DNA of 24,668 nt from a virus. How positions within the stretch are numbered: position 1 is the first letter of the stretch; the number at the start of each line of letters is the position of its first letter. Below, one piece after another: positions 3,632 to 20,551 of the stretch. Location of the stretch: IMG/VR virus record IMGVR_UViG_3300008267_010481, positions 1 to 24,668 of that record; one strand, given 5' to 3'. Under the pieces are notes generated by a model. That model was not told the origin of the DNA and ran no database searches. It saw only the letters and a program-made list of their open reading frames with translations. Position numbers and translations under genes: made by a program.

Positions 3632-3655
3632 TAGGTGACCGTGTGTAAGAACACG

Positions 3656-3690: not shown

Positions 3691-3692
3691 AC

Positions 3693-3700: not shown

Positions 3701-3705
3701 TTTTT

Positions 3706-4907: not shown

Positions 4908-4928
4908 ATGTATGTCCTCCCTTCCCTA

Positions 4929-6446
4929 TTATTTATCTTTTGGCAGTTCCATAGACACTATCTTGTAATCAAACTTTTCTTTTTTGTATATCTTCACTCT
5001 TTCTTCAAAATGTTTGAAGACGTGATTTTTGTATGACTTGCTGCAAAGATCATCAACGATGTCAAAAACCTTTAGGGTTTTCTTTTTTGCAGATACACGC
5101 AAGCCTCTACCGATGCTTTGCAGCAAACGGATTACGGATTTAGTAGGTGATGCAAAAATAATATTGTCAAGATTAACAATGTTGATCCCAGCACTAGTAG
5201 TCCCATAGCTGGCCACAAGGATTGCATCTTTTTCCGTGTCGATGACGCGACGGATATATTCTCTTGCGTCTGCATCCGTTTTTCCGTAGATGAGATATAC
5301 TTTTCTATCGCCAGCCGCTGCCTTAATGAGAGCATGCAGGGGCTTCCCCTGTCCTTCGACGTAGTTGAAGAGGACGAGGGTATTTCCCTTGGTGTTGAGT
5401 GCGAGGTCTCGGATGAACTCATTGCGCCTATTATTACTTATTAGCCACTTGATTTCATCTGGATATTTTTGCTTTTTAAGCAATTCTTTTTCTGTTTCAG
5501 TATACTTCAGTAGTATAGCGTCAATGCCAAGCGTGGCAAGCAACCCCTTGTTCATGAGATTCTTGGTCTGTATGAACTGTATTGCTGGACCCAGGATACC
5601 TTCAATGCTTAGACGGTGTGCCTGCGCTTGATCCAGTGTTCCAGTTGTGCCAATGCGAAACCAAGCCTTAGACATTTTTTGACCGATCATGTTTATAGAC
5701 TCAGCTTTGGCTTGATGACATTCATCAAAGATTACTGCATCAAATTGATCAAACCACTCTCTGGGAAGTTTATAAACTGATTGCCACGTAGAAACAATTA
5801 TTTGCTTGTTTGTTTCTTTTTCGGCTCCAGCACTGATTTTGTGTACAAATTTCCTGCAATTCCATTTGGGATCATTCTTTGAATAATCAAAGAAGTCAGA
5901 TTCCATCTGATTTACCAGACCAACTGTCGGGACAAGAATTAATATCTTTTTGTCTGGCTTTATTACGGATAGCACAAAACGGAGCAATACGTATATTATT
6001 AAACTTTTTCCAGATCCTGTCGGGGATATAATCACGCACCGGTGATTGTTTATAGCGTGCATGATCGCTTGTGACTGGTGTGGATGCATCTCTATGCTGT
6101 TCTTTTTTACTGTTACATTCAGTTTCTTGTAGAATGTGTTCAGATCCTCCGGTGCTATGCATATGTCTTTTTTGCTTTCTTTAAAAGCGACAGAGTATTT
6201 TCTTTCGTCAGCAAACTTTTTTAAATAAGTTTTTAGACCCCGAGGAAGTGTGGATGTAAGAATATCATACAGACGAATTTTACCATCCCATATTCTTCTC
6301 TTGAACATGGGCATATATTGGGCACCTGGAACCATAAAGGAAAAATAGTCCCTTAGTTCTTTCTTTATTGCATTGTCTGTTTTGATGTAGTAACGAACTT
6401 CATCATTAGATTCAACTTCAATATCCACATAATATTTAGACCACAC
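4929..6446 (-). CDS. uvsW: UvsW-type ATP-dependent DNA helicase
   Basis: A 505-residue superfamily 2 helicase, matching T4 UvsW (503 residues) along its length. UvsW unwinds R-loops and branched DNA, turns off origin-dependent replication and supports recombination-dependent replication and repair. The N-terminal domain has FKRRIWDGKIRLYD (T4: NPRFRYGNWDGRIRLLD). The helicase core has HPHQSQAI near 121, Walker A SPTGSGKS at 141-148, ILVPTVGLVNQ, DECH at 241-244, TGTTGTL, and a C-terminal LLQSIGRGLR motif VI. The start is GTG at 6446, within the last codons of uvsY; no Shine-Dalgarno is visible, so translational coupling to uvsY is likely. Confidence 0.95.
   Translation of the reverse strand: MWSKYYVDIEVESNDEVRYYIKTDNAIKKELRDYFSFMVPGAQYMPMFKRRIWDGKIRLYDILTSTLPRGLKTYLKKFADERKYSVAFKESKKDICIAPEDLNTFYKKLNVTVKKNSIEMHPHQSQAIMHAINNHRCVIISPTGSGKSLIIYVLLRFVLSVIKPDKKILILVPTVGLVNQMESDFFDYSKNDPKWNCRKFVHKISAGAEKETNKQIIVSTWQSVYKLPREWFDQFDAVIFDECHQAKAESINMIGQKMSKAWFRIGTTGTLDQAQAHRLSIEGILGPAIQFIQTKNLMNKGLLATLGIDAILLKYTETEKELLKKQKYPDEIKWLISNNRRNEFIRDLALNTKGNTLVLFNYVEGQGKPLHALIKAAAGDRKVYLIYGKTDADAREYIRRVIDTEKDAILVASYGTTSAGINIVNLDNIIFASPTKSVIRLLQSIGRGLRVSAKKKTLKVFDIVDDLCSKSYKNHVFKHFEERVKIYKKEKFDYKIVSMELPKDK
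4930..4937 (-). promoter_or_regulatory. Late-promoter-like box before the Sm-like gene
   Basis: Read on the minus strand, GATAAATA matches the late consensus TATAAATA at seven of eight positions. It sits 22 bases before the ATG with GGAGG between, a layout close to that of gene 23. It overlaps the last codons and stop of uvsW (Asp-Lys-stop), which could produce this string by chance. Confidence 0.35.
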
Positions 6447-6873
6447 CGTTCATCATTTTATGCCACTCAATAGCAGACTTTATGTTAAAATTTCTATTGT
6501 TGAGTGATCGTAAAAACTCCTCTACCATTTTGAGTTTTACTTCACTGACAGCAATTTTTGATTTAAGTTCAATTACTTTTGGGTCAGCTTCTACAAATTG
6601 CTCAACATCACTTTTCAACAAAGTGAGATCTGAGGGTTCTTCTTCCCAACTGTCAAGTTCTTCCTTGGAGGCTTTCCCCGTATAAATTTTCCACTTGCGC
6701 AATTTTAAAATTGCCAAGTCGTGCTGTTGTTTTGTCAAAAGTAATTTGACATCTGATAAAATTGTAAGATACTTCGAGTGTATTTGAGGTATCTTAAGAG
6801 ACTCAACACCTAACTCTGTAGAGTCTATTTGAGAGTCTTTAGTAATAAGTTCTTTAAGGTTCTCTAGATTCAT
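6436..6873 (-). CDS. uvsY: UvsY recombination mediator protein
   Basis: A 145-residue protein matching T4 UvsY (137 residues), the mediator that loads UvsX recombinase onto ssDNA coated with gp32. The N-terminus MNLENLKELITKDSQIDSTEL parallels T4 MRLEDLQEELKKDVFIDSTKL, and the C-terminus LNNRNFNIKSAIEWHKM parallels T4 IKSRGFAIKHIQDMRAF. The middle is helical and charged, with RKWKIYTGKAS matching the T4 RLDYYSGRG segment. It is the first gene of the leftward unit and overlaps uvsW by 11 bases. The ATG is preceded only by AAAAG, so no strong ribosome-binding site is seen. The uvsX gene is not in the window. Confidence 0.92.
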   Translation of the reverse strand: MNLENLKELITKDSQIDSTELGVESLKIPQIHSKYLTILSDVKLLLTKQQHDLAILKLRKWKIYTGKASKEELDSWEEEPSDLTLLKSDVEQFVEADPKVIELKSKIAVSEVKLKMVEEFLRSLNNRNFNIKSAIEWHKMMNGVV

Positions 6874-6887
6874 CTTTTATAGATTAC

Positions 6888-6914
6888 TCTATAGTATACT
6901 TTAGATAATGTCAA
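6888..6914 (-). promoter_or_regulatory. Leftward promoter candidate for uvsY-uvsW
   Basis: Reading leftward, TTGACA (6914-6909) is a perfect -35 element and is followed after 15 bases by TATAGA (6893-6888). The spacer is shorter than the 16 to 18 bases usual for sigma-70 and the -10 is imperfect, so strength is uncertain. It would give a short leader for uvsY. Confidence 0.4.
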
Positions 6915-6929
6915 ATAAATATATTTGAC
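6910..6929. repeat. Perfect inverted repeat between the divergent promoters
   Basis: GTCAAATA (6910-6917), AATA, TATTTGAC (6922-6929) is a perfect 8+8 inverted repeat with a 4-base centre. Each arm contains the -35 element of one of the two divergent promoters. A dimeric regulator bound here could cover both -35 boxes at once. The symmetry may also be a by-product of two back-to-back TTGAC elements. Confidence 0.8.
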
Positions 6930-6952
6930 TTTATTTTTTAATAAACTATAAT
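6925..6952 (+). promoter_or_regulatory. Strong sigma-70-type promoter for the glycan island
   Basis: TTGACT (6925-6930), a 16-base spacer and a perfect TATAAT (6947-6952) form a near-consensus host-type promoter. The expected start is near 6959, leaving a leader of about 14 bases with GAGG (6959-6962) before the ATG at 6973. It is the only clear promoter seen before the island, so it may serve several genes. Confidence 0.82.
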
Positions 6953-6972
6953 AACTGTGAGGTCTATTGACG

Positions 6973-7611
6973 ATGATAATTGATTTGCGTGAAATACCTG
7001 TTGTCTGGATAAATTTGGACTCCGCGACCAAAAATGCACAGACAATGGAAGAACGATTTAAAAAATTTGGATTTAAAAATACACATAGAAAATCCGGATT
7101 GATTATTCCACCACCTGAAGGAACAGATCCTTCCATTGCCCATTTTATGGGGTGTGGTCAATCTCATATTGACATTTTGGATGATCAAAACTATGATACT
7201 CCTCTTCTTATTTTGGAAGATGACATAGAGTTTGCTGAAGATTTTAACCCAGTAATTGAACTTCCAGACGATTCTGATGCAATCTATCTGGGTATTTCTC
7301 ATGGTAACAGATATTACCAAACATGCAAAAAAAGCCCAGACTACTTGAGAATATCTGGTATTTTGGCGGCTCATGCAATTTTGTATGTAACAAAAGAATT
7401 TAGAAAAGCCATGTCCGATGTAGGAAAAATGTGTTTATATCAACTTAAAAAACCATGGGATATTGGTACAGCAAACATACAACACAAACACAGAGTTTAT
7501 ACACCAAATAAACCTGTCATATACCAATCAAACGATAGAGAAAGTGCCAATAAATGGCAAAATTTGACTGACAAGCCTCTCGCAAATACATTTACAATTT
7601 TTCCATCATGA
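6973..7611 (+). CDS. Glycosyltransferase family 25-like protein
   Basis: A 212-residue protein like GT25 (LPS biosynthesis) transferases, usually galactosyl- or glucosyltransferases using nucleotide sugars. Visible hallmarks are the opening VVWINLDSATKN (GT25: INLDxxxxR), FMGCGQSHIDIL near 58-69 and the LEDDIEF acidic motif at 81-87 that would bind the metal and nucleotide. The C-terminal part is shorter than in many bacterial members. ATG 6973 is chosen over an in-frame TTG at 6967, because GAGG lies ten bases upstream of the ATG. It is the first gene after the promoter, and its stop overlaps the next ATG (7608). Confidence 0.8.
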   Translation: MIIDLREIPVVWINLDSATKNAQTMEERFKKFGFKNTHRKSGLIIPPPEGTDPSIAHFMGCGQSHIDILDDQNYDTPLLILEDDIEFAEDFNPVIELPDDSDAIYLGISHGNRYYQTCKKSPDYLRISGILAAHAILYVTKEFRKAMSDVGKMCLYQLKKPWDIGTANIQHKHRVYTPNKPVIYQSNDRESANKWQNLTDKPLANTFTIFPS

Positions 7612-8399
7612 TAACATTTAATTTAATGGGTAGATATGGCAGAATGGGAAATCAGATGTTCCAATATGCAACGTTATATGCGATTGCAAAAACAAGGAAA
7701 TATGATTTTGGTGTTCCATATCAAGTAAAATCAGATAACCCTTACCAAAATTTTTGTTTAAATGAATGTTTTCCCAATTTGTCTGCAAAAGACAGTTCTA
7801 ATGTCAGAAATATTCATTCTGCACAAGAAAAAGTATTTACATACAATGCTGGTATATTTGGAATACCCGATAACACAGATGTTGTTGGATATTTTCAAAG
7901 TGAAAAATATTTTAAAGACTATCGACAAGCTCTACTAAAAGAGTTTACGTTTTCGGATAACATCCAAAATAAGGCACAAGACATAAGATCTATCACAAAA
8001 GAGCCCGTAATTTCCATACACTTAAGACTTGGAGATTATAAAAATCTAGTAGGTAAACATCCCGTCTGTGGTATCGAATATTACAAAAATGCCCTCAAAG
8101 AAGTTCCAGAGGACCTTTTGATTGTTGCATTCAGCGATGAACCAAATCTTGCAAAAGAAATTTTTGATGGATTGAACAGAAAATACTTCCTCACTGATAC
8201 AAACGATCAGTACATCGATATGTGTCTGATGACTTTGTGTAATTATCACGTAATTGCAAATAGCAGTTTTAGTTGGTGGGGTGCTTGGTTGTCGGAAAGC
8301 AAAAAAGTAGTAGCTCCCGCCACATGGTTTGGCGAGTCACCAGAAATGCCAAAAAATTGGTCTGACATATATTGTGATGGGTGGACTGTATGCGAGTGA
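7608..8399 (+). CDS. Alpha-1,2-fucosyltransferase-like protein (GT11)
   Basis: A 263-residue protein with all the GT11 hallmarks: GRMGNQMFQYA near 11-21, SIHLRLGDY near 136-144 (the HxRxGDY-type GDP-fucose binding loop) and NSSFSWWGAWLS near 218-229. GT11 enzymes move L-fucose from GDP-fucose to the 2-position of a galactose or related acceptor; bacterial ones act in O-antigen and Lewis-type glycan synthesis. No membrane segment is seen, so it should be cytoplasmic. The length is a little below the roughly 290 residues of bacterial relatives. It starts within the last codons of the GT25-like gene (ATGA overlap). The donor specificity is inferred from the family. Confidence 0.9.
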   Translation: MITFNLMGRYGRMGNQMFQYATLYAIAKTRKYDFGVPYQVKSDNPYQNFCLNECFPNLSAKDSSNVRNIHSAQEKVFTYNAGIFGIPDNTDVVGYFQSEKYFKDYRQALLKEFTFSDNIQNKAQDIRSITKEPVISIHLRLGDYKNLVGKHPVCGIEYYKNALKEVPEDLLIVAFSDEPNLAKEIFDGLNRKYFLTDTNDQYIDMCLMTLCNYHVIANSSFSWWGAWLSESKKVVAPATWFGESPEMPKNWSDIYCDGWTVCE

Positions 8400-9214
8400 A
8401 TGAGCTTTCAGCATTTGGAAGTCCATTTGCTCATGATGTTACTTCATGTATGGGAATACCACCTAGTAATTTTACCTGGGTATTTGACAGACCTTGCTCC
8501 AGCAATATAGAAGTATATCTTGATTATAATATCCTCGGTGGTATGCAAAGTCGTTGTCAAAATAAATTTTTATGGCTTTGTGAATCTCGTGGAATAACCC
8601 CAAACCAACTAGAATTTGTAAAAACAAATTACAGTGAATTAAAAAAAATATATAAAAAAATATTTACCCACGTCACCGAGGTAGTTGATTTGGATGATTG
8701 CTTTGAGTATTGTCCTCCAGCAGCAAATATGACATGGATAAAAAATAGGGGAATCCATAACAAGACAAAATTAATTTCTATGGTATCTTCCGGTAAAAGT
8801 TTTTGCAAAGGCCATGAGTTCAGAAACAAAATGATGGAGAAGTTCAAAGAATCAAATTACAATATTGATTACTACGGAAGATCATTCAATCCTTTTAAAG
8901 TAAAAGAAGACGTATTGAATGATTATTATTTTTCAATAACAATTGAAAATGAAAAGTACTCCAATTACTATACTGAAAAATTAATGGATTGTTTTGCAAC
9001 AGGAACAATACCGGTATACCACGGAACACCAGATCTTCCAAAGATGTTTAATCCAGATGGTGTATTGATACTAGAAGAAAACTTTGATTTTAATTTATTG
9101 ACTTCAGAACTTTATTATGAAAAAATAGACGCAATAAAAGAAAATTATGATTTGTGCATGAAGCACATGTCTGCAGACGATTTTATATACGAAAAGATTA
9201 CAAACTTACTATGA
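8390..9214 (+). CDS. Alpha-1,3/4-fucosyltransferase-like protein (GT10)
   Basis: A 274-residue protein whose C-terminal half has the GT10 donor-binding signature: FSITIENEKYSNYYTEKL at 181-198 followed by GTIPVYHGTPD at 205-215. GT10 enzymes transfer L-fucose from GDP-fucose to GlcNAc or glucose in the 3- or 4-position; bacterial members modify LPS. The N-terminal acceptor half has FTWVFDRPCSSN and FLWLCESRGI. ATG 8390 is chosen over GTG 8381 because GGGTGG precedes it; it overlaps the GT11 gene by ten bases. Having GT11 and GT10 in tandem suggests a difucosylated product or two alternative fucosylation sites. No GDP-fucose synthesis genes (gmd, fcl) are visible, so the host would have to supply the donor. 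Confidence 0.85.
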   Translation: MRVNELSAFGSPFAHDVTSCMGIPPSNFTWVFDRPCSSNIEVYLDYNILGGMQSRCQNKFLWLCESRGITPNQLEFVKTNYSELKKIYKKIFTHVTEVVDLDDCFEYCPPAANMTWIKNRGIHNKTKLISMVSSGKSFCKGHEFRNKMMEKFKESNYNIDYYGRSFNPFKVKEDVLNDYYFSITIENEKYSNYYTEKLMDCFATGTIPVYHGTPDLPKMFNPDGVLILEENFDFNLLTSELYYEKIDAIKENYDLCMKHMSADDFIYEKITNLL

Positions 9215-9948
9215 AAAATTGTTTAATATATCAGCCCTGCGGTCTTGGAGATATTATTTGGCTTCAACCAATTGTCGACAAACTAATCTCAGATGGATAT
9301 AAGATTTATTATCCTGTAATAGATCTGTATTACGACATGCTAAAAGAGCAAATGCCAAAAGAAAATCTTATTTGGGTAAAGGAAAGTGAAGACTTTCCGA
9401 TGAAATCATTCTATGGAACTCACGTCACAAGAAATGACGGAAACAATCTATATCTGCCAATATCTTTTGCCAACTATTACCTGCAAAGATGTTCCGTCAT
9501 GATAAGTAAGTATTATTACATGAATATGCCAATAACAAATTGGCACAAAAATGTAAATATAAAAAGAAATACCGAAAAAGAAAATCGCTTGATCAAAGCA
9601 TACAAAATCGACCTCTCAACTCCATTTGCATTGGTCAATATGGTATACGGTACACCCCCAAATCACGTTTCACGGGCAATGACACTCAGCTCCGATGCAA
9701 GTCAACTGGTCCACATGTCATTTGAAAAGGACCGGGAGCATGGGTTTACTCTCTTTGATTGGATTGGTGTAATAGAACGCGCAGTAGAGATACATACCGT
9801 TGAAACATCATTGTGCTATCTGGTTGATATGTTTGCGAAGACTGATAAAATTTTTATGTATGAAAAGCGACGTGAAAGCGAGCAACATACATATTATGGT
9901 CTCGTTAACCTAGTTTATAGAAATCCAAATTGGAGTTATTTAAATTAA
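9211..9948 (+). CDS. GT9/heptosyltransferase-like (GT-B fold) protein
   Basis: A 245-residue protein starting at ATG 9211 in an ATGA overlap with the previous gene; an upstream TTG at 9154 would overlap that gene by 61 bases. The N-terminus LIYQPCGLGDIIWLQPIVDKL resembles the first Rossmann half of heptosyltransferase-like GT9 proteins (GxGDxxxxxPxxxxL), and EIHTVETSLCYLVDMF near the C-terminus resembles their HTxxTSxxHLA donor-site helix. It is shorter than classical GT9 enzymes (about 320-350), so one half may be reduced. The activity and sugar are unknown; a glycosyltransferase role is inferred from these two motifs and its neighbours. Confidence 0.65.
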   Translation: MKNCLIYQPCGLGDIIWLQPIVDKLISDGYKIYYPVIDLYYDMLKEQMPKENLIWVKESEDFPMKSFYGTHVTRNDGNNLYLPISFANYYLQRCSVMISKYYYMNMPITNWHKNVNIKRNTEKENRLIKAYKIDLSTPFALVNMVYGTPPNHVSRAMTLSSDASQLVHMSFEKDREHGFTLFDWIGVIERAVEIHTVETSLCYLVDMFAKTDKIFMYEKRRESEQHTYYGLVNLVYRNPNWSYLN

Positions 9949-9949
9949 G

Positions 9950-10324
9950 ATGAAAATTGAAGTTTCTAATGGCGAAATAGCCGACAAATACACTATTTTA
10001 AAATTAAAATTAAAACACTGCACTCCAATGAGTGCACAGTATTTTAACATTCAAGAAGAGTATACGATCCTTTTTGAAGCTGTTGATCAATTAAAACTAA
10101 ATCAATCTTTGGTAGAAGATCTTTACGTTATTAATAAAGAACTTTGGGAAATTGAAGATAAAATTAGAGTTTTAGAACAACAACAAGATTTTGGAGAAGA
10201 GTTTGTAAAATTGGCTAGGTCTGTATATATCACAAATGATAAAAGGTTTTTAGCCAAGAAAAAAATAAATACGGATTCAAATAGTAAGCTCTACGAAGAA
10301 AAAATTTTACCAAAATATGATTAA
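9950..10324 (+). CDS. DUF6165 family protein
   Basis: A 124-residue protein that I recognise as DUF6165: MKIEVSNGEIADKYTIL at the N-terminus, VINKELWEIEDKIR in the middle and FVKLARSVYITNDKRFLAKK toward the end. The family is small, mostly helical and usually sits next to glycosyltransferase genes; its biochemical role is not known. Gene order here follows that rule, with a GT-B-like gene before and a DUF5672 gene after, overlapped by eight bases. A helper or scaffold role for a neighbouring transferase is a guess from position only. Confidence 0.85.
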   Translation: MKIEVSNGEIADKYTILKLKLKHCTPMSAQYFNIQEEYTILFEAVDQLKLNQSLVEDLYVINKELWEIEDKIRVLEQQQDFGEEFVKLARSVYITNDKRFLAKKKINTDSNSKLYEEKILPKYD

Positions 10325-11018
10325 TTTAAATGATGTGACAGTCGTGACAATTGATGGAGTTGGTAAAAACTCAGATGCCCTAAAGGCATTGAAGTATACT
10401 TGTAAAAAAATTAATTTTGGAGATGTGTTGTATTTTTCTCCAAAAAATTGGTCTAAAGATAAATTTTATAAATTTATAGAAATACCAAATCTCTCATATG
10501 AAGAGTATAACAGATTTTGTTTAATAGACTTGGTAAAGTATGTGAATACTAATTATGTGCTTATAATTCAAGATGATGGGTTTGTACACAATCCTGAACT
10601 TTGGAGCAACGATTATTTAAAATATGATTATATAGGAGCACCCTGGCCAAAACAACATTTATTTTTTAATACCAAAAGATGGCCAATGGTTCACAAAAAT
10701 CTATGTGAAAGCAATGTGGAATATCACGTAGGTAATGGTGGATTTACCATGAGAAGCAAAAGGTTGCTAGAAGAGGTTGGTAAAATGTATCTGCAAGAGC
10801 ACAAGGATATTCCAGAAGATGTTTTGATATGCATTGGTTTTAGAAAAAAACTAGAAGAGTTAAATTTTAAATTTGCTCCGTACAAAGTAGCTAAAAACTT
10901 TTCTTGTGAATCCATTTATGTGGAAAATGAAATTAATTATGCAGATAACACTTTTGGATTTCATGGTAGAGAGACACACTCAAGTCTGGTTAACCTGCTA
11001 AATACTGTAGAATTATAA
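10317..11018 (+). CDS. DUF5672 family glycosyltransferase-like protein
   Basis: A 233-residue protein with the DUF5672 pattern: YVLIIQDDGFVHNPELW near 81-97, YDYIGAPWPKQ, a VGNGGFTMRSKRLL block near 138-151, PEDVLICIGFR, FKFAPYKVAKNFSCE and a terminal FGFHG. The DD within IIQDDG is the candidate metal and nucleotide-sugar site of a GT-A-like fold. Family members are found in polysaccharide clusters, and the acceptor is unknown. The start overlaps the DUF6165 stop, so the two are probably translated together. Confidence 0.82.
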   Translation: MINLNDVTVVTIDGVGKNSDALKALKYTCKKINFGDVLYFSPKNWSKDKFYKFIEIPNLSYEEYNRFCLIDLVKYVNTNYVLIIQDDGFVHNPELWSNDYLKYDYIGAPWPKQHLFFNTKRWPMVHKNLCESNVEYHVGNGGFTMRSKRLLEEVGKMYLQEHKDIPEDVLICIGFRKKLEELNFKFAPYKVAKNFSCESIYVENEINYADNTFGFHGRETHSSLVNLLNTVEL

Positions 11019-11027
11019 AGGTGATTT

Positions 11028-12020
11028 ATGAATATTTTGATAACTGGCGTAGCCGGATTGTTGGGATCTAGATTAGCAGATTGGATGCTCAAGACATCTG
11101 ATGCAAAAATAATTGGAATCGATGACATGAGCGGGGGGTATGCCGAAAATGTCGATCCAAGAGTAGATCTTCATAAAATAAATCTAGCTTCTTCTGATGA
11201 GTTAGAAAAAATTTTTGAAAAAAACAAACCACAATATGTGTTTCACTTTGCAGCATATGCTGCAGAAGGACTAAGTCCTTTTATAAGGCAATTTAATTAT
11301 GAAAACAATTTAATTGCTACAACAAGATTGATAAATCAATCAATAAAACACGATGTAAAAAGAATAGTATTTACATCAACCATGGCCGTATATGGTGTTA
11401 ACAAACCACCATTTATCGAATCATATCAACAGGCGCCTATTGATCCATATGGCATAGCAAAATATGCATGTGAAATGGATTTAAAAGTTGCAGGTGAACA
11501 ACATAAACTAGATTGGTGCATATTCAGACCACATAATGTTTATGGTGTGAATCAAAATATTTGGGATAAGTATAGAAATGTTTTGGGAATATGGATGTAT
11601 CAGCATATGAATGGAATACCTCTTTCAATTTACGGAGACGGCATGCAAACCAGAGCATTCAGCTATGTTGATGACTGTGTTCCATATTTTTGGAAAGGTG
11701 CAACAGATCCCCAAGCATCCAAACAAATTTTTAATATTGGTAGTGATGACCATTGCAGCATAAATGAAGCGTGCGATACCTTAATTGAAGTAATGGGAGG
11801 TGGTAAAAAAGTTTATCTGGAGCAAAGGCACGAAGTCAAAGATGCGTGGGTATCCCATGAAAAAATTAAAAATTTGTTAAATTTTAAAAACTCCACAGAC
11901 TTAAAAACAGGATTAACCAAAATGTGGAAGTGGGCCAATTCTCAACCAAAGAGAGAAAGAAAACTTTGGTCTTCGTATGAGTTGGACAAGGGCATATATG
12001 ATTTTTGGAAATTGAAGTAA
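11028..12020 (+). CDS. NAD-dependent sugar epimerase/dehydratase (SDR, UDP-glucose 4-epimerase type)
   Basis: A 330-residue extended SDR. The NAD-binding loop is GVAGLLG at 7-13, then IIGIDDMSGG, HFAAYAAEG, the STMAVYG segment with the catalytic serine/threonine, and YGIAK with the Tyr-Lys pair. RPHNVYGVNQN and GDGMQTRAFSYVDDC match the substrate half of UDP-hexose 4-epimerases. The likely job is conversion of a UDP-hexose (such as UDP-Glc/UDP-GlcNAc) for the adjacent transferases; the exact substrate cannot be read from sequence by eye. AAGGTG eight bases upstream gives a fair ribosome-binding site. It appears full length. Confidence 0.85.
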   Translation: MNILITGVAGLLGSRLADWMLKTSDAKIIGIDDMSGGYAENVDPRVDLHKINLASSDELEKIFEKNKPQYVFHFAAYAAEGLSPFIRQFNYENNLIATTRLINQSIKHDVKRIVFTSTMAVYGVNKPPFIESYQQAPIDPYGIAKYACEMDLKVAGEQHKLDWCIFRPHNVYGVNQNIWDKYRNVLGIWMYQHMNGIPLSIYGDGMQTRAFSYVDDCVPYFWKGATDPQASKQIFNIGSDDHCSINEACDTLIEVMGGGKKVYLEQRHEVKDAWVSHEKIKNLLNFKNSTDLKTGLTKMWKWANSQPKRERKLWSSYELDKGIYDFWKLK

Positions 12021-12895
12021 TGAAAGCATTATTGTTCAATCATCATCCCGATTATTTGTGGTATACAAAAACTCTTTTTGAATCTCTTGGAATAGAAACA
12101 GATGTAGCCACTGAAGAGTTGACATATAGTCTTGGCGCAGATTACTGTTCTGTTTCAAAAGATTTTAAATTTCAATGTGGAAAAAATTGGTATGATCCAA
12201 AAACTCTTTTTCCAAATACAAAATTTACTTATAGCAATACTCACGTCGGGTATGATTATTATTTTAGCATAAACCCGACGATAGCAGAAAACCTACCATA
12301 TGATTCAACCAAAAATATTTTTGGTGCAGTTGTAATATGGCATATACTTCAAAGGAATGATTTTAAAAAGTATAAAAAAATAAGTTCCGTGGATTACATA
12401 AAATCATATGGTGGAACCCGACTTACTTATTTTATTCCGCAAAAGGGAGAGTTAAAAGAAAAAAAATATATAACCCAATTGATGGAATCATATAAAACAA
12501 GATATTTTGACGAAATGATGAATTTGAGACAATCACACCCGGTTGTTATTGCCGGTCACCCCGATGCCCCAGATGGTATAGTAGATGATTGGAGTACATT
12601 ATCTCATACCAGACTTCTAGTGCACCATAAAGAATATGGCTCATGCTGCAACGCGGTCATGAAAGCGCTCGATTGTGGTATACCGGTATACATGAGTAGA
12701 GAAAATAGATACAGACTTGGATTTGATGATATACCTGAATTTTGCTTTATTTTCAGTGATGATTACACTATAGCTCAAGCATACGAGATCAGCAATTCTT
12801 TAGATAATTCATCAATACAATCTGAATTTAGAAAAATAAAAAATATAGAAAAGGCAAAAGAAGAGTTTAAACACATATTAAATATAAAGGTGTAA
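12020..12895 (+). CDS. Putative glycosyltransferase (GT-B-like C-terminus)
   Basis: A 291-residue protein starting at ATG 12020, which shares one base with the stop of the epimerase (TAATG); an upstream TTG at 12005 is less likely. I do not recognise the family with confidence. The C-terminal third reads like the donor half of a GT-B glycosyltransferase: HPVVIAGHPDAP, LLVHHKEYGSCCNAVMKAL, DCGIPVYMSRENRYRLG and FIFSDDYTIAQAYEIS, equivalent to the GxxxxEAxAxGxPV pattern, although the usual Glu of the EX7E motif is not evident. The N-terminal half has MKALLFNHHPDYLWYTKTLF. Context in the island supports the guess. Confidence 0.5.
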   Translation: MKALLFNHHPDYLWYTKTLFESLGIETDVATEELTYSLGADYCSVSKDFKFQCGKNWYDPKTLFPNTKFTYSNTHVGYDYYFSINPTIAENLPYDSTKNIFGAVVIWHILQRNDFKKYKKISSVDYIKSYGGTRLTYFIPQKGELKEKKYITQLMESYKTRYFDEMMNLRQSHPVVIAGHPDAPDGIVDDWSTLSHTRLLVHHKEYGSCCNAVMKALDCGIPVYMSRENRYRLGFDDIPEFCFIFSDDYTIAQAYEISNSLDNSSIQSEFRKIKNIEKAKEEFKHILNIKV

Positions 12896-12896
12896 T

Positions 12897-13454
12897 ATGA
12901 ATACATTAAGTGAAGTATATAAAAATAGTTGTGAGCTTGCAATAGCAGAGGGAATGGAACAACACGGTTCTGATAAAGGAACTCACCACAGCTACATTGA
13001 TGTTTATGAAAGTTTATTTTTAAAGTACAAAGATAAAAAAATAAATCTTTTGGAAGTTGGAGTAAACCGTGGCTATAGTTTATACACATGGAAAAATTAT
13101 TTTGTAAATGCAGATAATTTGGTAGGTATAGAATACCAACCTCATATTGTTTACAAAAAAGATGGAGTAAAGTTAATTTATTCTGACATTAATGATGCAG
13201 ACAATGTTAATTCCCAATTAGGTGATATGAAATTTGATATAATCATAGATGATGGAAGCCACAGAATTGAAGATCAGTTTTTTGCATTTGAACTTTTAAA
13301 AGATCGTCTAAATCCTGGTGGAATCTATGTTATAGAAGATATTCAAAATTTAGAGTCAGATATTTTAAAGTTTCAAAAATATTATCCAAAGGTATATGAT
13401 CTGAGGCAAAATAAAAATAGATGGGATGACGTATTATTTGTTTGGGAGAATTAA
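12897..13454 (+). CDS. Class I SAM-dependent methyltransferase
   Basis: A 185-residue methyltransferase. Motif I is INLLEVGVNRGYSLYTW near 49-65 with the glycine-rich SAM loop, acidic strand-2 residue in LVGIEYQP, then FDIIIDDGSHRIEDQF and LNPGGIYVIEDIQ. This resembles macrocin-O-methyltransferase-like and related sugar O-methyltransferases, where the DD pair after strand 4 helps bind a metal. The N-terminal GSDKGTHHSYIDVYESLF block is also typical of that group (substrate-gating segment). AAGGTGTA precedes the ATG. A role in methylating a sugar hydroxyl in the island product is inferred from context. Confidence 0.8.
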   Translation: MNTLSEVYKNSCELAIAEGMEQHGSDKGTHHSYIDVYESLFLKYKDKKINLLEVGVNRGYSLYTWKNYFVNADNLVGIEYQPHIVYKKDGVKLIYSDINDADNVNSQLGDMKFDIIIDDGSHRIEDQFFAFELLKDRLNPGGIYVIEDIQNLESDILKFQKYYPKVYDLRQNKNRWDDVLFVWEN

Positions 13455-14231
13455 ATGAAAATATATGATTGTTTTACTTTTTATAATGAGTTGGATCTTC
13501 TTGAAATTAGACTAAACGAATTAAATGATGTTGTTGATAAATTTGTATTAGTCGAAGCAGAAAAAACACATCAAAATAAAGATAAAGAACTTTATTTTGA
13601 AAATAATAAAACTAAATTTGCTCCTTTTTTACATAAAATAATTCACGTTATTGTACCAAAAGAGCTTTTTGTAGATAATGATGCTTGGTATAATGAAAGA
13701 TTGCAAAGAAAGTGTATCCTGGAAGGCTTAAAAGAGGCTAATGATGAAGATTACTTAATAGTATCTGATTTAGATGAAATACCTTCTAGCGAATCTGTAA
13801 AACAAGCTATAAGTTTTAAACAAACACCTTTATCTTTTGAGCATATTTTGCACTATTATTATTTGAATACACCATTACTTGTAAGTGATAGTGAAAAAAA
13901 TTTAGGTAGCGTTTTATTGGAAAAATCTTTTTTTGAAAAAAATACAGAAATTGTTAGAGATAGAAAAAAACATAGCTTTAATATTGTAAAAAATGCTGGC
14001 TGGCATTTTTCATTTTTGGGAAATGAAAATGTGGTTTACAATAAAATTAAAAATTATGCCCACACGGAGTTTTCTGATTTGGATTCGGAAACGATTAAAA
14101 ACCGTTTAAATAACATGGAAGATCCTTTAGGCCGTAGTAATTGTAGATTGATTTGCAATACGGATTTAGACTATCTTCCAGCATACGTAAAAAATAATTT
14201 ACAAAAATTTGAAAAATATATAAAGAGGTAA
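13455..14231 (+). CDS. Glycosyltransferase family 17-like protein
   Basis: A 258-residue GT17-type protein. Family hallmarks are IYDCFTFYNELDLLEIRLNE at the N-terminus, DKFVLVEAEKTHQNK, ELYFENNKTKFAPFLHKI, NERLQRKCILEGL, and the acidic DYLIVSDLDEIPS near 108-120 that would hold the nucleotide sugar and metal. Characterised eukaryotic members are beta-1,4-N-acetylglucosaminyltransferases; bacterial and phage members are common in polysaccharide clusters and their sugar is not established. It directly abuts the previous stop (TAA then ATG). The gene is very AT-rich: a hand count of 13921-13980 gives 11 G/C in 60. Confidence 0.88.
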   Translation: MKIYDCFTFYNELDLLEIRLNELNDVVDKFVLVEAEKTHQNKDKELYFENNKTKFAPFLHKIIHVIVPKELFVDNDAWYNERLQRKCILEGLKEANDEDYLIVSDLDEIPSSESVKQAISFKQTPLSFEHILHYYYLNTPLLVSDSEKNLGSVLLEKSFFEKNTEIVRDRKKHSFNIVKNAGWHFSFLGNENVVYNKIKNYAHTEFSDLDSETIKNRLNNMEDPLGRSNCRLICNTDLDYLPAYVKNNLQKFEKYIKR

Positions 14232-14233
14232 AT

Positions 14234-15121
14234 ATGAAAAAAGCTTTAGTATTGGGTGCAGGTGGATTTATTGGCGGTCATCTCGTAACTAGACTCAAAA
14301 AAGAAGGTTACTGGGTACGTGGTGTAGACATTAAAGAACACGAATACAAAAAATCAGATGCTGATGAATTTTTTGTACTAGATCTCAGAAATTCAGATAA
14401 TGTTACCAGAGCATTTACCATAGACAGCATTACAGAAACATTTGATGAGGTCTATCAACTTGCAGCCGACATGGGTGGCGCAGGTTACATCTTTACCGGG
14501 GAGCATGATGCAGACGTGATGCATAACTCGGCAATGATTAATTTAAAACTGGATCCAGACAATCCCAAGTGCTCTGAAGATTCTGCTTATCCCGCTGCAC
14601 CCGACAGTGAATACGGTTGGGAAAAACTGTTCAGCGAACGTTTATACCTTGCCTATAACAGAAACTACGGGCTTCCAGTCAGAATTGGAAGATTCCATAA
14701 TATTTTTGGACCATATGGATCATGGAACAATGGAAAAGAAAAGGCACCTGCAGCAGTCTGCAGAAAAGTAGCTTTTTCTGAAGATGGTATTATTGAAATT
14801 TGGGGAGATGGAAAACAAACCCGTTCATTCCTCTATATTGATGACTGTTTAGATACTGTTCGTCGGTTTATGGAATCAGATTTTATGGGCCCGATGAACA
14901 TCGGGTCTGAGGAAATGATTTCCATAAATGGCTTGGCGGAACTGGTTATGGAAATTGCAGACAAAAAGCTAACAGTAAAAAATATACCAGGCCCAACCGG
15001 AGTAAGGGGAAGAAACTCGGACAACACTCTGATGAGAGAAAAATTATCTTGGTGTCCAACTCTCCCTCTTAAGCATGGTTTAGAAAAAACTTATTCTTGG
15101 ATTAATTCATTTAATAAATGA
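14234..15121 (+). CDS. GDP-mannose 3,5-epimerase-like protein with internal in-frame deletion
   Basis: A 295-residue extended SDR closely resembling GDP-mannose 3,5-epimerase-like proteins: GAGGFIGGHL at 8-17, VYQLAADMGGAGYI near 73-86, SAYPAAPDSEYGWEKLFSER near 117-136, RFHNIFGPYGSWNNGKEKAP, then EIWGDGKQTRSFLYIDDC. These enzymes convert GDP-mannose to GDP-L-galactose or GDP-L-gulose. In relatives, about 25 to 35 residues including an SSSACxYP segment (with the catalytic cysteine and SDR serine) lie between the HNSAMINL block and the LDPDNPKCSEDSAYP block. Here the two blocks are fused at about 14543-14551, with frame kept. As written the product should be inactive. It is also richer in G/C than its neighbours (34 of 60 at 14461-14520), suggesting separate acquisition. 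Confidence 0.85.
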   Translation: MKKALVLGAGGFIGGHLVTRLKKEGYWVRGVDIKEHEYKKSDADEFFVLDLRNSDNVTRAFTIDSITETFDEVYQLAADMGGAGYIFTGEHDADVMHNSAMINLKLDPDNPKCSEDSAYPAAPDSEYGWEKLFSERLYLAYNRNYGLPVRIGRFHNIFGPYGSWNNGKEKAPAAVCRKVAFSEDGIIEIWGDGKQTRSFLYIDDCLDTVRRFMESDFMGPMNIGSEEMISINGLAELVMEIADKKLTVKNIPGPTGVRGRNSDNTLMREKLSWCPTLPLKHGLEKTYSWINSFNK

Positions 15122-15128
15122 GACTATA

Positions 15129-15695
15129 ATGAATATAGTTCAAATAGGTGCAAACAGAGCAGACGATGATTTGACGGCTTTAATTTTTGATAAACAGCCA
15201 AAAAAATTTATAATAGTTGAACCAATGCACATTCATAATGAAGCGTTGCTGGCTTGTTATGATTGGATTGAAAATAAAATTATAGAAAATATTGCTATAA
15301 CTGATGATTTGGTAGATAAAATAAATTTTTATTATCATATTGACGACGGCCCAAAATATGAAGTTGCATCACTGGATCCAAAACATATATTGAAACATAG
15401 GTATTCATCAGATGGAATAAAAAAAATAGAAGTTCCATGTTTAACTATTAATAAATTGCTAGAAAAACACAATATCAATACTGTTGATATTCTTTTTGTA
15501 GATTGTGAAGGGTTAGATGATACCATAATAAAAGCAATTGATTTTACAAAATTTAAAATTTATAAAATTTATTTTGAAAATCTTCATTTAAAAACCGACT
15601 TGAATACGTTTTTAAGTGATAAAGGATATGAAATAAATAAAAATGTAGGACAACATGGTTGGATGAATTTAGCAATATTAAAAAAGGAACTTTGA
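15129..15695 (+). CDS. FkbM-type SAM-dependent methyltransferase
   Basis: A 188-residue protein with the FkbM/Methyltransf_21 pattern: NIVQIGANRADDD at the N-terminus (reduced SAM loop), FIIVEPMHIHNEAL as the acidic strand-2 segment, VASLDPKHIL, VPCLTINKLLEKH and VDILFVDCEGLDDTIIKAIDF near 117-137. FkbM-type enzymes often O-methylate sugars or polyketide hydroxyls and are frequent in capsule and O-antigen clusters. It follows the epimerase by seven bases without a strong Shine-Dalgarno, and its stop overlaps the next ATG (TGATG). The acceptor is unknown. Confidence 0.85.
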   Translation: MNIVQIGANRADDDLTALIFDKQPKKFIIVEPMHIHNEALLACYDWIENKIIENIAITDDLVDKINFYYHIDDGPKYEVASLDPKHILKHRYSSDGIKKIEVPCLTINKLLEKHNINTVDILFVDCEGLDDTIIKAIDFTKFKIYKIYFENLHLKTDLNTFLSDKGYEINKNVGQHGWMNLAILKKEL

Positions 15696-16279
15696 TGGAT
15701 CATTTTTATCAAGAAAGTACATTTGGAGAAAACTGGTTTGATTATCCAAATTTATATAAAAAAATTGTAAATTTAGCAAAAGAAAATAGCCATTTTGTAG
15801 AGGTCGGTTCATGGAAGGGCCGCAGTGCATCTTATATGGCTGTAGAAATTATAAATTCTGGAAAAAATATTAAATTTGACTGTGTTGATACTTGGTCAGG
15901 AACCAATGATCCAAATGAAAAAGAGTCTACACCGGAGTATCGTAACGAGCCAACCATATTAAACGATACTTTATTTGATTTATTTTTGAGCAATACCAAT
16001 AAAGTTTCGCATGCAATTAATCCAGTAAGAAAGGCTTCAACCGAAGCAGCCGCATTGTATGAAAACAATTCTTTAGATTTTGTATTTATTGACGCGTGTC
16101 ATACGTATGATTGTGTGACCGCTGATATAAAAGCATGGCTTCCAAAAATCAAAGAAGGTGGTATTTTGGCTGGACATGATATTGGATATGGTCCAGTTAC
16201 AAGAGCCATCCTTGAAAATTTAGAAAATTGTGAACAAGATGGTTCTTGTTGGGTTTATTATAAAATAAATAATAGATAA
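15695..16279 (+). CDS. Class I SAM-dependent methyltransferase (Methyltransf_24-like)
   Basis: A 194-residue protein from ATG 15695, in a TGATG overlap with the FkbM gene and preceded by AAAAGGAA; a longer in-frame start at 15659 lies inside the previous gene and is less likely. It has HFVEVGSWKGRSASYMAVEI near 35-54 (SAM loop), FDCVDTWSG (acidic strand 2), SLDFVFIDACHTYDCVTADI near 126-145 and IKEGGILAGHDIG. The pattern fits Methyltransf_24-type proteins common in glycan clusters. It is the third methyltransferase of the island and is distinct in sequence from the one at 12897. Confidence 0.82.
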   Translation: MDHFYQESTFGENWFDYPNLYKKIVNLAKENSHFVEVGSWKGRSASYMAVEIINSGKNIKFDCVDTWSGTNDPNEKESTPEYRNEPTILNDTLFDLFLSNTNKVSHAINPVRKASTEAAALYENNSLDFVFIDACHTYDCVTADIKAWLPKIKEGGILAGHDIGYGPVTRAILENLENCEQDGSCWVYYKINNR

Positions 16280-16287
16280 AAAATTAT

Positions 16288-17193
16288 ATGAAATATCTAG
16301 TTACTGGTGGCTGTGGATTTATTGGTTCCAATGCTGTTGATTATCTTGTAAATCAAGGACATACCGTTGTTGTGATTGATAATTTATCATCAGATGTTCA
16401 TGATGTTTTTTACTTTAACAACAAAGCATCATATCATCATTATGATGTATTGGATTATGTAATGTGTTCAGATGTTTTTAATAAACATAAACCAGATGTG
16501 GTGTTGCATTTTGCAGCAGAGGCCAGAATACAAAATTGCATAGAAGATCCACAAAAAGCTTTTGAAGTTAATTCTATGGGAACATTGAATATGTTGGCTT
16601 TGTGCAAAAAATATTCAGTAAAAAAATTAATTTTGTCAAGCACATCAGCAATATATGGTAACTCAAGCCAACAACAGACTGAAAGTGCACAACCAGATTG
16701 TTTGAACCCATATTCTTTGAGTAAACTTCACGCCGAAGATTCTTGTCGGATGTATAGTAAACTATATGCGGTGGAAACAATTTGTTTAAGATATTTTAAT
16801 GTTTATGGACCACGAAATCCATCAAAAGGGCAGTATGCCCCAGTAATTGGTATTTTTAAGAGACAAAAAAACTCAGGAGAAAATCTGACCATTGTCGGTG
16901 ACGGAAATCAAACTAGAGACTTTGTGCATGTCTTAGATGTAGTTAAAGCAAATTATTATTTTAGCTTATCGCAAAACCAATATGGTGGAGATGTATTTAA
17001 TGTTGGTACCGGAAAGTCATACAGCATAAATGATATAGCAAATAAAATAGAACCAGACATTACAAAACACATGCATATGCCAGCCAGACTGGGAGAATGC
17101 AGAGATACAAAGGCTCATATTAAAAAAATTGAGTCTGCTTTATCTTGGAAACCGACTATTGATTTGATAGAATGTCTTGACAATGATAATTAA
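16288..17193 (+). CDS. UDP-glucose 4-epimerase-like SDR
   Basis: A 301-residue GalE-like extended SDR: GGCGFIGSNAVDYL at 7-20 (NAD loop), VVVIDNLSS, VVLHFAAEARIQNCIEDP, LILSSTSAIYGNS with the catalytic serine region, YSLSKLHAED with the Tyr-Lys pair, LRYFNVYGPRNP and GDGNQTRDFVHVLDV. It probably interconverts UDP-glucose/galactose or the N-acetyl forms. The C-terminus after LSWKPTID is short and ends in Asp-Asn-Asp-Asn, and the following promoter's -35 overlaps these last codons. No Shine-Dalgarno is visible before the ATG. It is the last gene of the island. Confidence 0.87.
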   Translation: MKYLVTGGCGFIGSNAVDYLVNQGHTVVVIDNLSSDVHDVFYFNNKASYHHYDVLDYVMCSDVFNKHKPDVVLHFAAEARIQNCIEDPQKAFEVNSMGTLNMLALCKKYSVKKLILSSTSAIYGNSSQQQTESAQPDCLNPYSLSKLHAEDSCRMYSKLYAVETICLRYFNVYGPRNPSKGQYAPVIGIFKRQKNSGENLTIVGDGNQTRDFVHVLDVVKANYYFSLSQNQYGGDVFNVGTGKSYSINDIANKIEPDITKHMHMPARLGECRDTKAHIKKIESALSWKPTIDLIECLDNDN

Positions 17194-17204
17194 AGTGATA
17201 TAAT
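17177..17204 (+). promoter_or_regulatory. Consensus sigma-70 promoter for gene 55
   Basis: TTGACA (17177-17182), a 16-base spacer and TATAAT (17199-17204) are both perfect consensus hexamers. Six bases separate the -10 from the GTG start of gene 55, so the expected first transcribed base is at or within a base or two of that codon. The -35 lies inside the end of the epimerase gene. Host polymerase could thus express the late sigma factor and the replication genes downstream without phage factors. Confidence 0.85.
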
Positions 17205-17210
17205 AATATT

Positions 17211-17780
17211 GTGAAAAAGCCAAAAAAGAAGAAATCAAAGCCATCTGATGCTGATTACGTAGACAATCAAGCTCTGTATGATGCTTTAGTAGAATATCGA
17301 AAAAAGTGCAAGGAAGCAGAGAATTCCGGAAGAAAGAAGCCAAAAGTAACGGATTATCTGGGAGAATGCATATTAAAGATAGCTACTAGACTTTCATACA
17401 GACCAAATTTTGCAAATTATCCTTACAGAGAAGAGATGGTGTCTGATGCAGTGTTAAACTGCATAACATACATCGACAACTTTGATCCAAAGAAGTCAAC
17501 CAGCCCGTTTGGGTACCTAACCCAAATATGCTGGTTTTCTTTTGTAAGGATAATAAACAAGGAAAAAAAAGAAAAGTATACTCAGTATAAGTTTGCAGAA
17601 CAGCAGAACAACAAAGATTTTCAAAATTGGTTTAATGAAATCTATGCTGGTGTTGACATTGGAAGAAAAGATTTCTTTGGTCTGACAGACTCAGATATGG
17701 AAAGATTTGACATAATGTGTGCTCCCAAATCTCCAATAAAGAGAAAACGAAGATCCAAAAAAGAGCTTTTTGATCTATGA
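17211..17780 (+). CDS. 55: Late-transcription sigma factor gp55
   Basis: A 189-residue T4 gp55-type sigma factor, which directs host RNA polymerase to TATAAATA late promoters and works with gp45 clamp and gp33. Similarity to T4 gp55 (185 residues) is clearest in the middle: SYRPNFANYPYREEMVSDAV then NCITYIDNFDPKKSTSPFGY, then LTQICWFSFVRIINKEKKEK (T4: [49 protein letters not shown]). The N-terminus is very Lys-rich and the C-terminus is basic (SPIKRKRRSKKELFDL). The start is GTG 17211; there is no other ATG or GTG before the conserved domain that would keep it intact, and no Shine-Dalgarno, consistent with a leaderless mRNA. Its stop overlaps the gene 47 ATG. Confidence 0.93.
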   Translation: MKKPKKKKSKPSDADYVDNQALYDALVEYRKKCKEAENSGRKKPKVTDYLGECILKIATRLSYRPNFANYPYREEMVSDAVLNCITYIDNFDPKKSTSPFGYLTQICWFSFVRIINKEKKEKYTQYKFAEQQNNKDFQNWFNEIYAGVDIGRKDFFGLTDSDMERFDIMCAPKSPIKRKRRSKKELFDL

Positions 17781-18823
17781 AAGCAGTCATATTAAATGAC
17801 ACGCACTTCGGGTATAAGGCAGACTCCCCGATTGTACTTGAATACTTTTTAAAGTTTTTTGAAGAACAGTTGTTTCCCTATTTAAAGGAAAACAACATCA
17901 AGACCATTTTTCATCTTGGTGATGTTTTTGACAGAAGAAAGTATATAAACTTTCGTACTCTCAATATGGTTAGAACTAGGTTCATGGAACCACTGCGTGA
18001 CATGGGAATAAAATGCATAGCTATTTGCGGAAACCATGACACGTATTACAAAAACAACAATAGAGTAAATTCATTGGATGAATTGGTTTCACAATATGCA
18101 AACTGGGAAATCTATTCGGAACCTGCGGTAATAAATACCGCAGCTGGTTGTGTTGCTTTGCTTCCATGGATCAATCCGGAAAATGAAGACGCTGCTGCTA
18201 AATTTATTTCTGAGACAACTTGCAGCGTTCTTCTCAGCCATCTTGAGCTTTGCGGCTTTCAAAGCATTCGTGGTATTTTTATAGAACAGGGGTATGATGC
18301 AAAACACTTTGGAAAGTTTGATTATGTACTTACCGGTCATTATCACGTTAAGTCTAGTCGTGATAATATCCATTACTTGGGTACGCAATATCAAATGGCT
18401 TTTTCAGATGTTTGGGAGCCGAAGGGATTCCACGTATTTGATTTTTCGTCTAGAGAACTTGTATTCATCGAAAATCCTAGAAAACTTTTCTATACGTTTG
18501 ATTATAATGAAGACGAACCAGAAAAGCTGGACTATTCGGTATTCAAGGATTGCTACGTCAAGATCTTTGTCAAGAAGCGCACGAAGGCTGCGCCGTTTGA
18601 AAAATACATGGACAAATTCTATGAAGCGGGCGTGGCAGAGCTTGCCGTCACCGAAGAAGTTAGTGCAAATCCTGAACTCGTTGCGGTGGACGTGCACAAG
18701 GACACTCTACAGTTACTACATGAGGAACTTGGAACCATTAACGAGAAGTCAATCGACAAGCAAATACTTGCCAAGATAATAGACGACGCGTATAATAGTG
18801 CACTGTCAAAGGATGAAGAGTGA
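17777..18823 (+). CDS. 47: Recombination endonuclease subunit gp47 (Mre11/SbcD-like)
   Basis: A 348-residue calcineurin-like nuclease, close in length to T4 gp47 (339). With gp46 it resects DNA ends for recombination-dependent replication and helps degrade host DNA. Metal-binding motifs of the Mre11 family are all visible: NDTHFG (D8, H10), LGDVFDRR (D49), CGNHDTYY (N86, H87, D88), a LLSHLE segment and TGHYHVKS near 194-201. The C-terminal third is the variable capping region. ATG 17777 overlaps the gene 55 stop (ATGA), and its own stop overlaps the gene 46 start (GTGA), so the three genes are probably translationally coupled. Confidence 0.96.
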   Translation: MKAVILNDTHFGYKADSPIVLEYFLKFFEEQLFPYLKENNIKTIFHLGDVFDRRKYINFRTLNMVRTRFMEPLRDMGIKCIAICGNHDTYYKNNNRVNSLDELVSQYANWEIYSEPAVINTAAGCVALLPWINPENEDAAAKFISETTCSVLLSHLELCGFQSIRGIFIEQGYDAKHFGKFDYVLTGHYHVKSSRDNIHYLGTQYQMAFSDVWEPKGFHVFDFSSRELVFIENPRKLFYTFDYNEDEPEKLDYSVFKDCYVKIFVKKRTKAAPFEKYMDKFYEAGVAELAVTEEVSANPELVAVDVHKDTLQLLHEELGTINEKSIDKQILAKIIDDAYNSALSKDEE

Positions 18824-20544: not shown

Positions 20545-20551
20545 TTTGTAA

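Follow-up and report, generated by a model that had tools for sequence, protein, structure and literature searches.

We analyzed a 24,668-base stretch of viral DNA (IMG/VR record IMGVR_UViG_3300008267_010481, hereafter the window), which is the entire record of the virus and represents a piece of the genome of a T4-like phage related to Kyanoviridae. Between uvsY and gp55 (also called gene 55), the window carries an island (positions 6973–17193) of 14 open reading frames (ORFs), an unbroken run on the plus strand of glycosyltransferase (GT), nucleotide-sugar and methyltransferase genes. We propose that this island works as an exchangeable cassette for glycan assembly and acts on the lipopolysaccharide (LPS)- or lipooligosaccharide (LOS)-type glycan of the infected host, and we give this reading a probability of about 0.5.

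The ORFs, numbered g01 to g14 from left to right, are tightly packed, with junctions of –61 to +9 nt when each ORF is taken from its first start. An initial annotation of the window had described the uninterrupted plus-strand run correctly but had counted 13 genes, overlooking the ORF at 12020–12895. Most of its family assignments were upheld at scores above the Pfam cut-off. These comprise the GT11 (g02, 7608–8399; E = 9.5e-24) and GT10 (g03, 8390–9214; 9.6e-11) glycosyltransferases, both of fucosyltransferase families, DUF6165 (g05, 9950–10324; 3.3e-12), DUF5672 (g06, 10317–11018; 2.3e-23), a GT17 glycosyltransferase (g10, 13455–14231; 1.8e-28), three SDRs, and three methyltransferases, namely two class I enzymes matching Methyltransf_24 (g09, 12897–13454; 2.7e-8, and g13, 15695–16279; 3.7e-20) and one FkbM enzyme (g12, 15129–15695; 8.5e-15). 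The three SDRs had all been called epimerases. Two are of UDP-hexose 4-epimerase type (g07, 11028–12020, PDB 4zrm 1.3e-41, galE 3e-36; g14, 16288–17193, PDB 4zrm 3.8e-52, galE 1.8e-53; both galE matches fall below the NCBIfam cut-off), and the third, g11 (14234–15121), is specifically a GDP-mannose 3,5-epimerase (PDB 2c59, 4e-84) that lacks 84 nt in frame here, a gap visible in the alignment. According to the excerpt of PMC9602691, GDP-mannose 3,5-epimerase makes GDP-L-galactose.

Two of the annotated families held up less well. The GT25 assignment of g01 (6973–7611) is weak, since its Pfam match (5.9e-4) scores 20.2 bits against a cut-off of 24; its best PHROG, phrog_24091 (4e-41), is of unknown function, and a glucosyltransferase PHROG matched at 2.6e-6. 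The GT9-like identity of g04 (9211–9948) found no curated family match (Pfam, NCBIfam), and no relevant structure came out of a PDB profile search, but it is supported by the predicted fold: an AlphaFold model (pLDDT 81) has a heptosyltransferase-type fold, for which Foldseek ranked the GT9 structure 3tov first (E = 4.5e-6, TMq 0.55), followed by TibC and WaaC/WaaF. The overlooked ORF, g08 (12020–12895), had no match in Pfam, PHROG or NCBIfam, and an exact-pattern scan of IMG/VR found relatives at 3 loci only. From its sequence alone, we would guess that it is perhaps a GT-B transferase. A structural model of g08 built from 2 sequences was unusable (pLDDT 34), and we claim no family from it.

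The position of the island is fixed among the relatives of this phage. Relatives were taken from IMG/VR (the best 80 of 110 stretches for uvsY and the best 80 of 341 for gp55), and 44 contigs carried both flanking genes on the fetched loci; these contigs resemble the window by selection and do not sample T4-like phages as a whole. All 44 have a divergent uvsY, then an island, then gp55, with 6.3–15.2 kb between the two flanking genes. Including that of the window, the 45 islands comprise 595 ORFs (called in the relatives with a greedy caller), 8–19 per island, all on the plus strand and covering 97–102% of island length with overlaps counted. Several islands are near-duplicates, so that the set reduces to 35 different gene orders, with 38 different upstream regions. 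By contrast, in six named phages (S-SSM7, DSL-LC02, P-TIM40, S-SKS1, AG-345-L05, and HTVC008M) uvsY, uvsW and gp55 are collinear with no glycan island between them, although some carry one or a few other genes at the uvsY-gp55 junction (a carbamoyltransferase in S-SSM7); AG-345-L05 has no annotation, and its arrangement was judged from blast positions. The initial annotation had noted that T4 has nothing like the island here. T4, in which uvsY is not known to adjoin gene 55, is an unsuitable comparison, as cyanophages and a pelagiphage do have this junction, without the island.

The left border of the island is formed by an orf219/uvsW/uvsY block (4248–6873, minus strand) that is inverted with respect to cyanophages and HTVC008M. 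Across the loci (some contigs gave several), uvsW and orf219 lie on the same strand in 76/76 cases and uvsY and uvsW in 90/90, while uvsW and gp23 are on different strands in 61/61, and so are orf219 and gp3 in 73/73. In the six named phages, the uvsY-uvsW block is instead collinear with gp3 and gp55; the island junction of the window's group therefore differs from theirs by an inversion.

Gene content varies between islands around a recurrent core of sugar chemistry. Single-linkage clustering of the island ORFs gave 140 clusters, each assigned from one tested member. The 42 largest hold 459 of the 595 ORFs, and 29 of these (384 ORFs) have a tested member matching a sugar-chemistry family, by which we mean glycan, nucleotide-sugar, sugar-aminotransferase and sugar-type methyltransferase families, with DUF5672, DUF6165 and a split transketolase included; the 384 ORFs take in two sub-threshold clusters (40 ORFs: 37 GT25-like and 3 GT7-type). 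For a further 12 of the 42 clusters (69 ORFs) Pfam gave no match, and one more (6 ORFs) was assigned by fold only, while the 98 smaller clusters (136 ORFs) are covered only by a Pfam tally that lists 25 of 85 families. The first ORF always comes from one of three clusters, the GT25-like cluster of g01 in 29 islands and clusters 6 and 32 in the other 16 (12 islands for one and 4 for the other), and GT11 directly follows the GT25-like gene in 30/45 islands. Irrespective of position, the GT25-like cluster occurs in 37 islands, GT11 in 33, GT10 in 30, and SDRs in 40. The initial annotation had reasoned that unrelated, random content at this spot in relatives would make a working pathway unlikely; the content does differ, but the left-end genes recur and most of the ORFs in the 42 largest clusters are of sugar type, and this comparison did not overturn the pathway reading.

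Other islands hold additional enzymes, among them a UDP-GlcNAc 2-epimerase (L102:2213–3211) and, in the Pfam tally, UDP-galactopyranose mutase, cytidylyltransferases and one ketopantoate hydroxymethyltransferase. With these extra sugar enzymes, sugar repertoires therefore differ between islands. We also noted that in seven islands two neighboring ORFs (clusters 16 and 17; L044:2744–3469 and L036:1772–2647) together encode a split transketolase, which is unusual beside glycosyltransferases.

Two conserved elements precede the island on the plus strand: a late-promoter-like element, GTCAA(A/C)TAAATA, which holds (A/C)TAAATA (6910–6921), and immediately downstream a sigma70-type promoter (TTGACT, 16-bp spacer, TATAAT; 6925–6952). 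Under a strict pattern (TTGAC and one further base, separated by 16 or 17 bp from a TATA-type –10), the promoter was found in all 38 distinct upstream regions, against 0.08/38 in composition-shuffled controls, and GTCAA(A/C)TAAATA lay directly upstream of it in 38/38, against 0.005/38 in the same type of control. The more relaxed (A/C/T)TAAATA occurs within 70 bp upstream of gp23 (12/12 relatives), orf219 (16/16), orf94 (8/8) and g01 (19/19), and is rare or absent upstream of uvsW (0/15), uvsY (1/32), gp47 (1/33), gp46 (1/28), gp45 (0/23), gp44 (0/20) and g02 (0/20). Its distribution is less sharp at gp3 (3/7), it is not restricted to late genes (g07 4/7, g14 3/8, g11 2/6, g13 2/6, regA 2/19), and gp21 has it in 0/12. 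We read (A/C/T)TAAATA as a late-type motif, the split between genes being clear, if imperfect; the cyanophage late motif is given as NATAAATA in the excerpt of PMC2984593. At the right border, a sigma70-type promoter of gp55 (TTGACA, 16-bp spacer, TATAAT; 17177–17204, plus strand) overlaps the end of g14, and a loose promoter pattern lies upstream of gp55 in 27/36 distinct regions, a count made without a shuffled control. On this reading, the island would be a transcription unit bounded by two promoters.

As at a serotype locus, the content of the island changes independently of the flanking backbone. We counted an island gene as shared at ≥45% protein identity across 60% of both proteins. Backbone identity and common island content were then correlated at 0.29 over 909 contig pairs (which are not independent of one another), and individual pairs depart in both directions. 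Contigs 3300042540_000949 and 3300046010_004062 have backbones 96.1% identical over 3,513 nt, and yet none of their 16 and 12 island genes is shared, two gene clusters being common below 45% identity. Conversely, 3300037041_000544 and 3300042309_001081 share 8/8 island genes on backbones 71.5% identical (915 nt), and the window shares 13 island genes (median identity 91%) with 3300042879_003643 on backbones 74.2% identical (3,501 nt).

Upon a closer inspection of the last pair, an eight-gene block, g03–g10 (8390–14231, plus strand), appears to have been exchanged recently with the 3300042879_003643 lineage. Proteins of the block are 87.6–96.0% identical (ratio of nonsynonymous to synonymous substitution rates, dN/dS, 0.03–0.07), whereas the outer island genes are 64–83% and the flanking core proteins 59–89% identical. 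In 600-nt steps, DNA identity is 84.7–91.7% in 8401–14400 and 68.0–85.3% elsewhere, with the highest value elsewhere at gp23. The synonymous rate (dS) is 0.37–0.58 in the block and 0.71–0.81 in uvsW, gp55, gp47 and gp46. Across all 13 common genes, dN/dS is 0.03–0.24, which indicates that the island genes are maintained by purifying selection. Judged from these comparisons, the cassette seems to have moved lately between diverged backbones, resembling bacterial serotype loci.

The 84 nt absent from g11, at 14547, are present in 6/6 distinct relatives. Contig L081 has these 84 nt too, and matches the window at 100% identity over the rest of the stretch they share (window positions 14434–23762). 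Similarly, gp23 (2403–3464) encodes 353 aa in the window and 471–487 aa in the 7/7 relatives in which it was found (9 tried), probably owing to a small assembly gap near 3455. Since L081 is intact and gp23, an essential capsid gene, is short too, both gaps are probably assembly slips, which we find likelier than decay, though a real variant is possible. For the same reasons, we rejected a broken pathway as the main interpretation of the locus.

How does the island relate to known systems? The initial annotation considered it a candidate for an undescribed system, which is too strong a claim, as the excerpts of PMC3037559 and PMC9602691 describe similar clusters in large T4-like cyanophages. 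The clusters of P-SSM2, S-SM2 and DSL-LC02 (which we inspected), and those of S-SSM7 and S-SCSM1, likewise contain GT11, GT25, other glycosyltransferases and epimerases, with GMD or FkbM in some, as far as these excerpts go. S-CAM9 has a comparable glycan cluster too. Some of these phages have homologues of g02 and g01, ~40% and 32–35% identical, respectively. What differs is the site. The neighbors of the three inspected cyanophage clusters are hli, pstS/phoA or psbA, and neither uvsY nor gp55 appears in the stretches examined, while in 44/44 contigs the island lies between uvsY and gp55 and not near hli03, phoH or psbA. The excerpts on cyanophage clusters gave no account of whole-cassette swapping at a fixed site or of a common double promoter, and none of the titles and abstract beginnings that were searched reports glycan genes inserted as a cassette at the junction of uvsY and gene 55. 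Within the literature covered, we regard the island as the same kind of gene set as the cyanophage LPS clusters, set apart by its fixed uvsY-gp55 site.

Other phages and bacterial loci offer more distant parallels. Pelagimyophages are T4-like aquatic phages with LPS-type glycosyltransferases that, in the excerpt of PMC7029224, are taken to modify the host O-chain. In the pelagiphage HTVC008M, no island interrupts the uvsY-gp55 junction, and glycan-type genes lie elsewhere. We searched 20 larger records related to the window, all fragments of 47–137 kb in which absence is no proof; CsgG, of the pelagimyophage host recognition cluster, was found in 0/20, as were psbA and transaldolase (talC), which would point to a cyanobacterial host. 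Bacterial O-antigen and capsule serotype loci (rfb/cps) have fixed borders, conserved ends and a replaceable middle, and switch by recombination. The island is alike in that layout, but phage-borne. Unlike a Wzx/Wzy locus, the related records contained no PF01943 flippase and no PF02397 or PF00953 initiating transferase (each 0/20); the Wzy polymerase was not searched by family, and hydropathy predicts more than one membrane segment in 0/595 ORFs of the 45 islands (a single segment in 7/595, all outside the window). These results agree with the initial annotation, which had seen no flippase, polymerase or membrane protein. Gtr O-antigen conversion by temperate phages is a phage-encoded change of surface glycan by two to three membrane-linked genes. 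The island, with its 8–19 ORFs, has no multi-pass membrane protein, and no Gtr family (GtrA flippase, membrane-anchored GtrB or GtrC) was among the window's matches.

From these features, we can outline how the cassette may work. The host-type promoter, joined by the late-type motif, would drive transcription of 14 proteins, mostly enzymes, none with a predicted membrane segment. The two UDP-hexose 4-epimerase-type SDRs and GDP-mannose 3,5-epimerase would make nucleotide sugars, GT25-, GT11-, GT10-, GT9- and GT17-type transferases would attach the sugars singly, and the methyltransferases would then methylate the added sugars. The likeliest target would be the LPS/LOS-type glycan of the infected host, exported by host machinery. 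In outer-core synthesis, soluble enzymes working on the cytoplasmic side attach the sugars and the host carries out export, so that a phage membrane protein would be unnecessary. Furthermore, the GT25, GT9, GT10 and GT11 families serve in the synthesis of LPS core and of Lewis-type LPS, and we favor remodeling of the host surface glycan because the families fit such synthesis with soluble enzymes. The recoated cell may then lack the receptor for competing phages and for released progeny, and swapping of the cassette as a unit would change the glycan type independently of the backbone. The suggestion of the initial annotation that the locus edits an existing glycan or decorates protein is supported by a glycan-building set without membrane proteins.

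Several observations weigh against remodeling of the host glycan, and some of them suit a different acceptor equally well. The presence of LPS in the host is presumed, and the acceptor cannot be read from sequence: the anatomy of the island fits the host glycan and the virion alike, as does the late-type motif. It is possible, though on balance unlikely, that the cytoplasmic enzymes act on a protein of the capsid or tail or on a decoration protein, with the cassette setting the sugar type of the particle. The lack of any multi-pass membrane protein among the 595 ORFs, the gp23-like late-type motif before all 38 upstream regions, and the exchange of whole sets, which resembles antigenic variation, are consistent with such virion glycosylation, for which mycobacteriophage virion glycans, cited in the excerpt of PMC12619734, are a precedent. 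The host-type promoter is, however, just as conserved, and no acceptor protein was identified from sequence. Chloroviruses use fucose and methyl enzymes of their own to make capsid glycans. Promoter timing does not decide between the two acceptors, because S-PM2 and RB49 are suggested to use early plus late promoters as their middle mode (PMC2984593, in excerpt). A more far-reaching version, which we regard as doubtful, is that this lineage has a true serotype locus, in which a swappable cassette covers the virions of the phage itself with a methylated oligosaccharide specific to the strain, and antigenic switching occurs by recombination. Also counting against our proposal is the donor supply. 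The initial annotation inferred a doubly fucosylated glycan, which is not sustained: although GT10 and GT11 count among the fucosyltransferase families, neither GMD nor GDP-fucose synthase was recognized beside them in the window. By short motifs, GMD-like genes occur in 24/45 islands, GDP-fucose-synthase-like genes in 9 and GME-like genes in 8. Two rate comparisons are likewise unfavorable, as dN/dS of the common genes is higher against 3300046009_010245 (0.05–0.41, with dS saturated in three), and simple exchange is complicated by uvsY, whose dS (0.45) lies inside the g03–g10 range, and by orf219 (0.59), just above it. Lastly, the excerpts put forward the host-surface role of such clusters as a suggestion and not as a tested result.

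Two further explanations deny the island a role in surface or particle glycans. It would be a stuffer, or transient host-derived cargo without function, if it were retained for headful packaging, as suggested for cyanophage LPS clusters in the excerpt of PMC3037559; the variable island length and a GC content below much of the core are in keeping with this. We consider it improbable in view of the low dN/dS of the 13 common genes, near-full coding density on a single strand in 45 islands, the conserved promoter pattern, and content mostly of one type of chemistry. A working pathway is favored over a stuffer because sets are exchanged and are under purifying selection. The transferases might instead add sugars to modified bases, given that T4 glucosylates its own DNA and that viral glycosyltransferases reportedly add diverse glycans to DNA, as the title of a 2024 study by Pyle has it. 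This is very improbable here: among the 20 related records, all fragments, the thymidylate-synthase-type hydroxymethylase (PF00303) and the C5 DNA methylase (PF00145) were each found in 0/20, and Tet_JBP (PF12851) in 1/20 at E = 1e-4, below the cut-off. The excerpt of PMC2984593, moreover, states no evidence of glycosylated DNA in cyanomyoviruses.

We also scanned bacterial genomes with the GT11 alignment, considering the best 80 of at least 591 stretches. The best match, L171 (JAFMEV010000049.1), is a 12 kb contig in a GTDB Chitinophagaceae metagenome-assembled genome, and is a uvsW-uvsY-island-gp55 phage locus from end to end (1–12277). We rejected a Chitinophagaceae host, given that the contig has no bacterial flank and given the promoter type, TTGACA/TATAAT not being Bacteroidota-like; the contig is apparently a binning contaminant. 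Since the other 79 matches are 29–40% identical, no recent donor is seen among the best 80.

The remainder of the window is T4-like backbone, in the order gp21-gp23 and gp3 (plus strand), orf219-uvsW-uvsY (minus strand), the island (plus strand), and then gp55, gp47, gp46, orf94, gp45, gp44, gp62 and regA, several of these names coming from blast matches to named phages. The flanking genes are well supported (uvsY, left of the island on the minus strand, Pfam UvsY 2.2e-27; gp55, on the right, phrog_234 late sigma factor 2e-52). Among the matches listed, the closest named phages are ~41% identical in uvsY, 41% in gp46 and 55% in gp23. After regA and outside the island, a GT2-type glycosyltransferase gene (23488–24666; Pfam 7.1e-13, phrog_13126) is cut by the contig end, and homologues of it occur in 45/160 loci. 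Between gp46 and gp45, a small gene (20552–20836) has a weak CBM_5_12 match (0.0018, below cut-off) and, unlike adjoining genes, a late-type motif upstream in 8/8 relatives.

Whether the LPS clusters of cyanophages work or are stuffer is left open in the excerpt of PMC3037559; the fixed site, selection, promoter and exchange described here favor function. The uvsY-gp55 island offers a defined locus at which loss or replacement can be assayed. If our proposal is confirmed, phage-encoded glycan type would switch fast in aquatic phages, which would bear on superinfection, host range or particle properties.

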